From positions 248,001-312,000 of the forward strand of contig JAVXUO010000422.1 of NCBI GenBank assembly GCA_033065855.1: DNA of 64,000 bases, written 5' to 3'. The notes under the pieces are model-generated. The model ran no database searches, was not told the origin of the DNA, and worked only from the letters and a program-made list of their open reading frames with translations. Below, in pieces: positions 14,362 to 32,582 of this stretch (positions are counted from its first letter, which is position 1; every line of letters begins with the position of its first letter). This stretch comes from Escallonia rubra (Eukaryota > Streptophyta > Magnoliopsida > Escalloniales > Escalloniaceae). The translations under genes were made by a program, and so were the position numbers.

Positions 14362-14728
14362 AGCGACTGTCTAAGTTTCTTAAGTATCCATTTCTCTTTG
14401 GTCAAAAACATATATTACTTGGAAGGAGTAGTCACATAGCTAAGTCCATGAACTTCTCACGACTTAGAATAAAGAAAAACAAACTTTGGCTCCTACCCAG
14501 GTTGTAAAAATCTTCCTCCAACCCAGTGTATGGTGACAATTAATAGTCCTTAAATGTTTTTAGTAGCTTTTCTTTTAACACTTTTAACGACAATTATTAC
14601 AGAACTTTGTTAGCGTCACTAAATTAAAGTCACTAAAAACATTTAGAGACGATCAATTGTCGTTATATAGGAGATAAGAAGAAGATTCTTCCGGCGGAGT
14701 AGCATCCAAATTTTTTCAATAAAGAAAG
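14362..14728. other. Junction spacer, probable start of duplicated unit B
   Basis: There is no match elsewhere in the window except for the short hairpin element at 14529-14672. It ends in TAAAGAAAG (14720-14728), the left target duplication of the following Mutator-like element. Confidence 0.5.
14529..14672. mobile_element. Short hairpin MITE
   Basis: The arms GACAATTAATAGTCCTTAAA and CTAAATGTTTTTAGTGACTT (in complement) fold back on each other. A related, more diverged copy is at about 41500-41632, with the same flank ending in GTTATAT.GGA.GATAAG. Confidence 0.6.
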
Positions 14729-15261
14729 GGATCATTTGCACATAAAACCCTATAGTTTGAGGGTTTGTGCGCATTTCACCTCACTATTTCAATTTTTGCG
14801 CAATTCACCTTACTGTTCATTAATTTGTGCTCAATTTACCAATTGACGGGCTGAAATCCAATTTTTTGGATGTCCATCAATTTCTCAGGGGCAAATTCGT
14901 GACTTCAATCCTCCAATCTACCTTGGCAATTACATGTCCACCTCACCAAATGTTAGCCTAATCAAAATCGTCCACCTTTGCAAACCACATCACCGTTGCC
15001 CAACACAAAGTCTTTGACCGGCAAAATCCAAAGCTCTATGGAAAAGGGCTAAGGCGATGGTAGAGACAAATGCCAGTCCCACCAGCGCAATCCAAATCCA
15101 ACCACCGTAGAACCCTCCAAACCCTTAACAGCACTATCACCGTCCAAACCCCACCACCGTCCAAACCACCTCCATCACAAAGTCGTTCAACCCCCACCAT
15201 CACAGAGTCGTCCAACGCCCCCCAAGCGCCAGTCCTTCAAACCCTCAACGGTGTTAGCGCT

Positions 15262-15362
15262 GTCCAAGCCCAACTCTCGATGATGACGTCGAACTCCGTC
15301 TTCTCCTCGACGACGGCATATCCTTCCACAGTGGCGCCGGGAGCACCGACGGTAGCCGGGGC
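15262..15362 (-). pseudogene. RPL12: Captured plastid ribosomal protein L12 fragment (copy a)
   Basis: In minus sense the DNA reads APGATVEGYAVVEEKTEFDV, which corresponds to the hinge and the start of the C-terminal domain of chloroplast L12 (the VEEKTEFDV signature). It breaks off into unrelated sequence after this segment. It duplicates the matching part of copy b, and the surrounding non-coding sequence is duplicated too (about 15170-15370 against 15405-15600). Confidence 0.8.
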
Positions 15363-15507
15363 GAAACCCCACCACCATAGCGCTGTCTAACCCACCTCCA
15401 TCACAAAGTTGTTCAACCCCCCACCATCACAGAGTCGTCCAACGCCCCCCCACATGCCAATCCTTCAAACCCCCAATGGCACTGTCCAACAAACCCCCAA
15501 CGGCACC

Positions 15508-15960
15508 GTCCAAACCCAACTCTTGATGATGACGTCGAACTCCGTCTTTTCCTCGACAACGACAGATGCTTCCACGGCGGCACCGGGAGCAGCGAAGGCG
15601 GCGGCAGTGATGTTGAGCCTGTCCTTGAGGTACTCGACAAACTCTACGCGTCGGCAAGGGATAGCTTAGAGATATCGTTGCTGAGGGCGACCACGTTCTT
15701 GGGGGAGTCAACGGTGGCAATAGGGCGTCAACGACGGAGTGCGATTAGGAGGTACAATGAGTTGAGGCCTGAGGTGTTCGAAGGAGAAGAAGGCAGATAA
15801 GGCGAGAAGGGAGGCAGGGGAGGAGGATGCAATGCCGACACCGACACTGGCAGAGTTGAAGATGCCTTTGGGGGAGTTGAGGAAGCTGAGGAAGGTTGGG
15901 ATCAGGTTGGGCAAGAGGTTGAAGTGGGAGATTGAAGGCTGATGTGGCTGCCAATGTGGT
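15508..15960 (-). pseudogene. RPL12: Captured plastid ribosomal protein L12 fragment (copy b)
   Basis: In minus sense this begins with a transit-peptide-like segment (ATSAFNLPLQPLAQ). It then gives VVALSNDISKLSLADA, a frameshift, then FVEYLKDRLNITAAAFAAPG followed by VVVEEKTEFDVIIKS. This is the N-terminal helical domain, hinge and start of the C-terminal domain of chloroplast 50S L12. The rest of the C-terminal domain is missing. The frameshift and truncation rule out a working L12. Confidence 0.88.
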
Positions 15961-16221
15961 TTGGGGGTTCAATTGACCATTCTACCCCTAAAATTTTGAC
16001 GGGCATCCAAAAAATTGGACATCAGCCCGTCAATTGAGCACAAATTAATGAATAGTAAGGTAAATTTCGCCAAAATTGAAATAGTAAGGTGAAATGCGCA
16101 CAAACCCTCAAACTATAGGGTTTTATGTGCAAATGATCCTAAAGAAAGAGGCATCTTACTGCACACTAACATAATTGTATGCACGTACACAATACGCACC
16201 CACATACATCAAGAGTAGAAG

Positions 16222-30685: not shown

Positions 30686-30841
30686 ATGGCGTCAGTCGAG
30701 AACCAAAGCCATATGATCTCGAACATGAGTTTGGATTTGAAGTCTTTCCACATAAACTTCGTAGCCTGTCGATTCCGTCGTTCTGCCATCGATTCCTTCT
30801 CCGTTGCCATAGAAGCCTTCTCCGAGCAGGTTATTCTTTGA
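30686..30841 (+). other. Upstream ORF in the WNK leader
   Basis: If transcription starts near 30610, the leader holds a 51-codon ORF (starting MASVENQSHMISNMSLD) that ends at 30841, 76 bp before the kinase ATG. An overlapping 13-codon ORF starts at 30675. Either could reduce translation of the kinase. I do not recognise the peptide. Confidence 0.35.
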
Positions 30842-30917
30842 TCCCTTTTTCTTTAACCTAGGGTTTCCAAGTTCTTGCATTTTTTTGGGCATCCGTTTCA
30901 ATATCGTTGTCGGCGCT

Positions 30918-32582
30918 ATGGATTATGAGTACGAGGAGGGTGTCGTTGAGGAGTCGCCGGACGGTCGGTACATCCGGTACGCTGAAATCTTGGGTAGTGG
31001 AGCTTTTAAGGTTGTTTACAAGGGTTTTGACCAGGATGAGGGCATAGAGATTGCTTGGAATCAGATGTGTATGAAAGACGACGCTTTACAGTCAGCGACA
31101 CATCGGGAAAGATTGCTTTCAGAGGCGGTGCTGTTAAAGTCGCTAAAGCATGACAACATCACCAAGTGCTATTGCTCTTGGGTTGATGAACAGCACAAAA
31201 CTGTGAACATGATCACCGAGTTATGCAGTTCCGGGAGTCTGAGTCAGTACAGGAAGAAACACAAAAGCGTGGACTTGAAGGCGATAAAAAACTGGGCGCG
31301 ACAGATTCTGCATGGGTTGAACTATCTGCACACTCATAGTCCTCCTATTGTTCATAGAGATTTGAAGGGTGACAATGTGTTTGTTAATGGGAACCACGGC
31401 CAGGTTAAAATCGGGGATTTAGGGTTTGCAACATATTTGGAGCAGGGCACCGCGAGGACCGTTATTGGTACGCCGGAATATATGGCCCCGGAACTGTTTG
31501 AAGATGATTATAATCAACTAGTGGACATATATGCCTTTGGGATTCTGATGATAGAGTTGGTCACTCGTGAGTACCCTTATAGCGAATGCAAGAATTTCGG
31601 GCAGGTTTATAAGAAGATCATATCGGGTGTAAAGCCGGCTGCTCTTGATAAAGTGAAGGATCCCCAGGTAAAGGAGTTTATTGAGAAGTGTTTGGTTCCA
31701 GCCTCTCAGAGGTTGCCTGCGGCTGAGCTTCTAAAAGACCCGTTCCTCGTATTTGGAAATTCGAAGGAGATTGTGCGTGGACATTCGAAGTCACCCATAG
31801 ATCCCTTGCTCAAATCATTGAATGTACCCAAGCCTGATTCTCAGATTTCCATGGTCCTAGAGCCTAGTTTTGGTGCGAGGAGCACGAGTGAAACTCCATC
31901 AAGCATCGATTCTTGGAGCTCCAGTGATAAGAAGGAATTCAGATTGAGAGGGAAAAGGATTGATGAGAAGTCGGTCTCATTTGTATTGAACATCACTGGC
32001 TTGCGCAAGAACAAAGTCGAGTTTGTGTTCGATCTTGGTGCTGATACTACACTTTCAGTAGCTAGTGAGATGGTTGAGCTCGACGAATTTTATACTGAAG
32101 ACGTGGCTCCTGTAGCCGAGTTGCTGGACAGGCTGCTTATGAAACTTGTACCAAGCTGGAAAATTTCATATTATGGAGCACATACCTCACATGAGAATTC
32201 TGCTCAAGGGAACCATTTCGCTGAAGAATCAAGTGTGTCAGACGACAAGGAAGTACTACATGCTGACTGCTGTACTGAGGAAGGCACTAAGGATTCAATC
32301 CAGTATGGTTCTGGAAGATGTTTGGGCAGTGTTTATGAGTCAGTCAAATCAAAGGAAATGCTGAGTTCATGCAGCGGCATGTCTGAGGATTCGAGCTTGA
32401 CTGCGTCTTCAATCTCACCGCCAGACGTTGATCACTTATATGGGCTGAAGCTAGAGCTAGATGTAATTGAATCTCAGTACCAGCAGTCTTGTCGCCAACT
32501 CTTCAGGCAAAGAGAGGAAGCAATGGAGGAAGCCAAAAAGAGGTGGATGGAAAAGATTACTCGTGTTATTGGATGTAAGTAG
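30918..32582 (+). CDS. WNK8: WNK-family serine/threonine protein kinase, WNK8-like, intronless
   Basis: This cytosolic kinase belongs to the with-no-lysine family. Plant WNKs act in osmotic and salt signalling, flowering time and the circadian clock. The first ATG in frame gives 554 residues (start MDYEYEEGVVEESPDGRYIR), close to Arabidopsis WNK8. The kinase domain covers about residues 20-280. The ATP-binding lysine sits in the glycine loop (GSGAFKVVYKGF) and subdomain II reads IAWN, the WNK signature. The catalytic loop HRDLKGDN, the metal site GDLGFA, and GTPEYMAPEL are intact. A small WNK/OSR1-type domain follows (EFRLRGKR to LLMKLVPSW). The C-terminus is a charged helix likely to form a coiled coil (LKLELDVIESQYQQS). 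Family genes usually contain several introns, and this copy has none, which suggests retroposition. It lies between divergent minus-strand patatin genes and is unrelated to them. Confidence 0.93.
   Translation: MDYEYEEGVVEESPDGRYIRYAEILGSGAFKVVYKGFDQDEGIEIAWNQMCMKDDALQSATHRERLLSEAVLLKSLKHDNITKCYCSWVDEQHKTVNMITELCSSGSLSQYRKKHKSVDLKAIKNWARQILHGLNYLHTHSPPIVHRDLKGDNVFVNGNHGQVKIGDLGFATYLEQGTARTVIGTPEYMAPELFEDDYNQLVDIYAFGILMIELVTREYPYSECKNFGQVYKKIISGVKPAALDKVKDPQVKEFIEKCLVPASQRLPAAELLKDPFLVFGNSKEIVRGHSKSPIDPLLKSLNVPKPDSQISMVLEPSFGARSTSETPSSIDSWSSSDKKEFRLRGKRIDEKSVSFVLNITGLRKNKVEFVFDLGADTTLSVASEMVELDEFYTEDVAPVAELLDRLLMKLVPSWKISYYGAHTSHENSAQGNHFAEESSVSDDKEVLHADCCTEEGTKDSIQYGSGRCLGSVYESVKSKEMLSSCSGMSEDSSLTASSISPPDVDHLYGLKLELDVIESQYQQSCRQLFRQREEAMEEAKKRWMEKITRVIGCK

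Follow-up and report, generated by a model that had tools for sequence, protein, structure and literature searches.

A chimeric Pack-MULE family in Escallonia rubra with fragments of a bL12c-like gene and a CRM-domain gene

Results

The window analysed here is a stretch of 64,000 bp (C2144:248001-312000) from a 566-Mb genome (G000) of Escallonia rubra, and all comparisons between loci were made within this genome. It contains a non-autonomous Mutator-like element of 1411 bp (14729-16139), whose parts are listed in Table 1. The initial annotation had described long terminal inverted repeats (TIRs) and a perfect 9-bp target-site duplication (TSD), and both are present: TAAAGAAAG stands on either flank, and the TIRs, about 200 and 191 nt long, match at 83.5% overall and at 95% over their outer 111 nt. 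Pack-MULEs have a 9-bp TSD. Pfam scans of ten frames detected no transposase in the element, the matches being Ribosomal_L12_N and one weak HTH (E 0.12). The TIRs, the TSD, an interior made of host-gene sequence and the lack of a transposase inside support the earlier reading of the element as a Pack-MULE. The left interior gave no Pfam match in the five frames scanned and shows likeness to other family members only. Directly to the left of the element, the window holds an inverted repeat with 70-nt arms (71%; 14506-14690), perhaps an older small transposon. Elsewhere in the window, a 589-codon frame (30813-32582) carries protein kinase and OSR1_C domains and is presumably WNK-like.

Table 1. 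Parts of the element and its flanks, in window positions
Feature	Position	Strand	Evidence
Left target-site duplication, TAAAGAAAG	14720-14728		perfect copy at 16140-16148
Left terminal inverted repeat	14729-14928	+	outer 111 nt 95% complementary to right end; ends recur on other members
Left interior	14929-15145		also present in subfamily C, whose copies showed no L12 cargo
Internal duplication, unit 1	15146-15352		77% to 15364-15598 over 235 columns
Short bL12 fragment	15276-15365	-	90 bp; donor nt 1429-1518 (of reversed L048); 83.3%, E 1.1e-22
Internal duplication, unit 2	15364-15598		77% to 15146-15352 over 235 columns
Long bL12 fragment	15522-15727	-	donor nt 1297-1518, CDS nt 151-372; 79.3%, E 3.5e-54
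CRM-domain (CRS1/YhbY) gene fragment, coding exon	15740-15929	+	83.9% to the C3143 gene (L066 3947-4131), E 3.2e-54
Right terminal inverted repeat	15949-16139	-	pairs with left repeat
Right target-site duplication, TAAAGAAAG	16140-16148		perfect against left copy, 9 bp

The initial annotation had recognised three L12 peptide segments, in a longer and a shorter copy, and we recovered both copies (206 and 90 bp), each antisense. All three are read from the minus strand; one frame contains FVEYLKDRLNITAAAF and VVEEKTEFDV, and VVALSNDISKLSLADA lies in another as a result of a 1-nt deletion against the donor. Pfam, phmmer and a nucleotide match to the bL12 gene of the same genome all pointed to L12. 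Among ten stop-to-stop frames, one matches Ribosomal_L12_N (E = 3.3e-5, 23.9 bits; curated cut-off 25), and phmmer matched the L12 piece of the window to solved bL12 with E = 4.2e-6. Since the window piece falls just under the Pfam cut-off, which 17 of 29 element loci pass, the naming of the cargo rests on the donor match. In that match, 206 nt of the long copy stand against 222 nt of the donor, and its frame is broken by the 1-nt deletion, with a 15-nt deletion besides; the short copy has neither stops nor indels.

The search for the parental RPL12 gene, suggested in the initial annotation, led to C2904. Six loci of the genome encode an L12 C-terminal domain (six of six candidates), and C2904 is the sole bL12c-like gene found. 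It has an open frame of 215 codons with PF00542 and PF16320 and reads like the cargo, encoding RPIAAVDAPEKVVALGNEISELSLADAQKLVEYLQDKLNITAAAF...EEKTEFDVVIE, which is the cargo's sequence; by eye, the other five loci differ. We take the donor and the cargo to be plastid-type L12, with a transit peptide, and the other five loci to be mitochondrial-type L12. The captured piece covers 222 bp (CDS nt 151-372, codons 51-124) inside one open frame without an intron, and thus fits capture from DNA or RNA alike.

The L12 origin of the cargo stood, but L12 is not its sole source. A second piece of about 190 bp, missed at first and lying in sense orientation, derives from a CRM-domain gene at C3143. In this donor, the captured piece lies in a frame of 284 codons with a CRM domain (PF01985, E 4.2e-15). 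A second CRM domain, in a frame downstream, also passes the cut-off (E 4e-12), and a third frame has a partial match that does not (E 8.2e-5). Some plastid intron-splicing factors are CRM proteins. In six of 28 copies, whose junctions were inspected, 10-17 nt separate the two pieces, which face each other with their 5' ends. The cargo is thus derived from two nuclear genes of the same genome, the bL12 donor at C2904 and the CRM donor at C3143.

Other members of this MULE, which the initial annotation had proposed to look for, were found in number. In a DNA search, 40 of 397 candidates were scored, and these yielded at least 146 matching pieces. The CRM cargo was matched at 32 element loci (33 matches among 34 candidates, the remaining match being the gene itself), and the L12 N-terminal model, with an E of 10 as the limit, was matched at 29 of these 32 as well (31 matches among 33 candidates, two being genes). 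There are thus at least 32 cargo-bearing loci, with elements of about 1.2-1.5 kb, and they fall into two subfamilies. Group A, that of the window element, has ten loci, nine of them with both ends and all of these with the internal duplication; the tenth (C2656) is truncated, which hides any duplication there. Group B, the older one, has 22 loci, 19 of which were aligned after exclusion of three interrupted or broken copies (C2685, C1646 and C1835). Two of its members, C1092 and C117, differ so little that they may be a single locus that was assembled twice. Copies are on average 95.3% identical within A and 89.4% within B, against 82.8% between A and B.

Perfect 9-bp TSDs without boundary shift flank all nine full-length A copies. 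In group B, 11 of 18 copies have a perfect repeat of at least 9 bp when the boundary may slide by up to 4 bp, and the nineteenth (L067) has none, giving 11 of 19 full-length copies overall. In group C, which matches the window element from position 1-12 to 519-546 in all seven copies, such a repeat was found in five of seven, one of the five being a run of T. The seven C copies showed no L12 cargo, and have the ends and the left interior in common with the window element. A 44-nt TIR pattern allowing up to three mismatches had 121 matches in the genome (64 and 57 by strand) and none in a reversed control. This count, together with nine of nine full-length copies of the same layout whose perfect 9-bp duplications differ in sequence, argues that the structure did not arise by chance.

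Twenty stretches around matches to the TIR pattern, drawn from part of the 121, were examined. An element of 5764 bp (C841:106679-112442) has TIRs only 81-83% like those of the window element, and separate frames in it carry DBD_Tnp_Mut (E 4e-13), MULE (E 1e-19) and SWIM (E 3e-4) domains. Its TSD, TTATTATTA, lies in a TTA run, and the element may not be intact. Two more short families with these ends have other interiors, one of about 1.2-1.3 kb (L075-L081, L091) and one of about 1.4 kb (L082-L086, L089), the interior of L086 being repeated about three times. L074 (G000:C302:37503-39370) has the same type of ends and an interior related to the latter family, plus about 415 bp of additional sequence. 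This sequence is crossed by a frame of 143 codons that matches a leucine-rich repeat below the cut-off (PF00560, E 8.5e-4), and it may stem from a further gene capture. L073 (G000:C1447:721589-726089) is a 4.5-kb element with the same ends and with frames of at least 100 codons, and the same end also occurs at C1448.

The internal duplication of about 230 bp described for the window element is real (Table 1), and it marks one subfamily: a long self-duplication is present in nine of nine group A copies and in none of the 19 aligned B copies. A 40-nt interior repeat in two of 19 B copies, and repeats of 76-142 columns in six of seven C copies, suggest that the interior is prone to repeats. Compared over 90 bp, group A's two L12 copies are 85.8% alike and are 83.4% and 82.3% like the donor, and each is 75.8% like B (16 B copies). 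These values place the duplication on the A lineage, ahead of its spread; that the two copies are only slightly closer to each other than to the donor is a point against this history.

Regarding the capture, donor nt 1518 is the end point of the long L12 match in nine of nine A copies and in 14 of 19 B copies. As capture edges and junction agree between the groups, capture preceded the split of A and B. When the group majorities were compared with the donor, eight L12 positions were changed alike in both groups, 18 in A only, 21 in B only and one in both but differently. Seven of the eight shared changes are at third codon positions, so that they are probably in the main changes of the donor gene. 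With so few shared and so many group-only changes, A and B seem to have parted soon after the capture.

We found no support for protein-coding constraint on the L12 cargo, where the counts of changes fit the null (Table 2). The stem of B has 17 non-synonymous and 4 synonymous L12 changes and is rich in amino-acid changes, while the CRM frame of B has a synonymous excess (P = 0.04, one of twelve comparisons); these are weak departures from neutrality in opposite directions. Thus, there is no consistent coding constraint, and changes in the L12 frame are consistent with neutral drift. In all nine A copies the same 1-nt deletion interrupts the long L12 frame, yet they spread. Counted on both strands against group majorities, C-to-T changes account for 64% (A) and 57% (B) of the changes; per site they are 1.9-2.8 times more frequent in CG and CHG than in CHH. 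A C-to-T decay biased to CG and CHG is expected of methylated plant transposons, and we assume that the copies are methylated.

Table 2. Changes in the two captured frames, observed and (in brackets) expected under the null
Frame and group	Non-synonymous	Synonymous	Stop
L12, B (18 copies, C117 dropped)	108 (109.4)	75 (72.2)	2 (3.4)
L12, A	37 (31.9)	16 (21.3)	1 (0.4)
CRM, B	71 (77.9)	47 (38.2)	3 (3.7)
CRM, A	20 (19.7)	12 (11.8)	0 (0.4)

Discussion

The window element is a well-resolved chimeric Pack-MULE of an already known kind. We are highly confident of its anatomy and history as a whole, that is, a capture from two donors before the subfamilies split, a later internal duplication in one lineage, and spread. 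We infer the order of these events from the sequences of the copies. Before the split, a MULE would have taken 222 bp of the bL12c-like gene in antisense and about 190 bp of the CRM gene in sense, presumably from DNA. The A lineage would later have doubled an interior stretch of about 220 bp, gaining its second L12 copy of 90 bp, and the duplicated lineage would then have spread to the ten loci known, that of the window among them. We assume that the family was moved by the transposase of a relative whose ends are of the same type; judging by its domains and TIRs, the C841 element is likely to represent the type of this mobilising partner.

The family most probably has no role in the host and is decaying passenger DNA, which at most seeds small RNA against its donors. 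One could think of transcription starting from one end, which would yield antisense L12 RNA together with sense CRM RNA, and of small RNAs that damp both donors. The L12 pieces are indeed opposite in sense to the CRM piece, and long perfect matches to the donors are common: the longest to the L12 donor reaches at least 26 nt in nine of nine A copies and at least 21 nt in ten of 19 B copies, and the longest to the CRM donor at least 21 nt in eight of nine A and 17 of 19 B copies. Given the stretches of at least 26 nt in all full-length A copies, an antisense effect on the L12 donor, as suggested in the initial annotation, is possible. However, the invariant L12 stretch measures 29 nt among the nine A copies (P = 0.052 by site shuffling), not clearly beyond chance, and 9 nt among 18 B copies (P = 0.18), so that the L12 piece of these copies contains no significant conserved perfect-match block suited to a small RNA. 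We regard damping of both donors as improbable. A stronger version, in which the family would be a two-gene source of small RNAs jointly tuning two steps of plastid gene expression, seems to us a good deal less probable still. If it were true, it would concern some 30 dispersed copies, most of which match the plastid-type ribosomal protein gene, the CRM gene or both in perfect stretches of 21-35 nt.

It is very unlikely that the B copies encode a selected short peptide, with the L12 dimerisation segment or from the CRM piece. The aligned L12 stretch is without stop or frameshift in 16 of 19 full-length B copies, and the amino-acid changes in the B stem and the small surplus of synonymous changes in the CRM frame of B could be read in this sense. 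Against it, L12-frame changes in the B copies fit the null in all three classes, no shared start codon was established for such a peptide, and group A spread with the long frame broken in every full-length copy.

What the family offers is a gene-capture history well traced within one genome, from the two donors and the edges of the captured pieces, through the two subfamilies and the later internal duplication, to a more recent spread. It also provides about 30 natural copies in which to ask if amplified gene fragments make small RNAs against genes that plastids need.

Pack-MULEs are reportedly the subject of Jiang et al. 2004. Gene pieces are also carried by Pack-CACTA elements and by Helitrons, according to excerpts of PMC8903248 and PMC13317346 respectively, but a Helitron, CACTA element or retrocopy was rejected on end structure and target duplications, and long TIRs with 9-bp duplications, together with related TIRs that enclose MULE transposase, Mutator DNA-binding and SWIM domains, leave such an origin next to no probability. 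The element is, then, compared with other Pack-MULEs. Like those of rice, tomato and other plants, it is non-autonomous and has long TIRs and host-gene fragments. The excerpts of PMC3310237, PMC8903248 and PMC13317346 describe amplified Pack-MULE families, the capture of sequence from several loci, and siRNA that arises from captured pieces; capture of more than one locus, as seen here, occurs sometimes (PMC8903248, in part), and the sizes of tomato Pack-MULEs peak at 1.0-1.2 kb (PMC3310237, in part), against about 1.2-1.5 kb here. Within the available parts of the Pack-MULE literature searched, the L12-CRM family is not described, which does not prove its absence from print. What sets it apart from known Pack-MULEs is the donor pair of a bL12c-like and a CRM gene, the internal duplication of cargo and its at least 32 loci. 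The closest parallel in the excerpt of PMC3310237 is the amplified PM-ZIBP family of tomato, with 13 copies with tandem TIRs and one with single TIRs, which likewise has a structurally duplicated form. In PM-ZIBP, as described there, the TIRs are duplicated and the duplicated form is the commoner, whereas here the duplication affects the interior and its cargo, and the unduplicated form has more loci (22, against ten of group A, nine of them seen to be duplicated). As far as these excerpts go, our family departs in nothing from the known kind of Pack-MULE, and its value lies in the completeness of its history.
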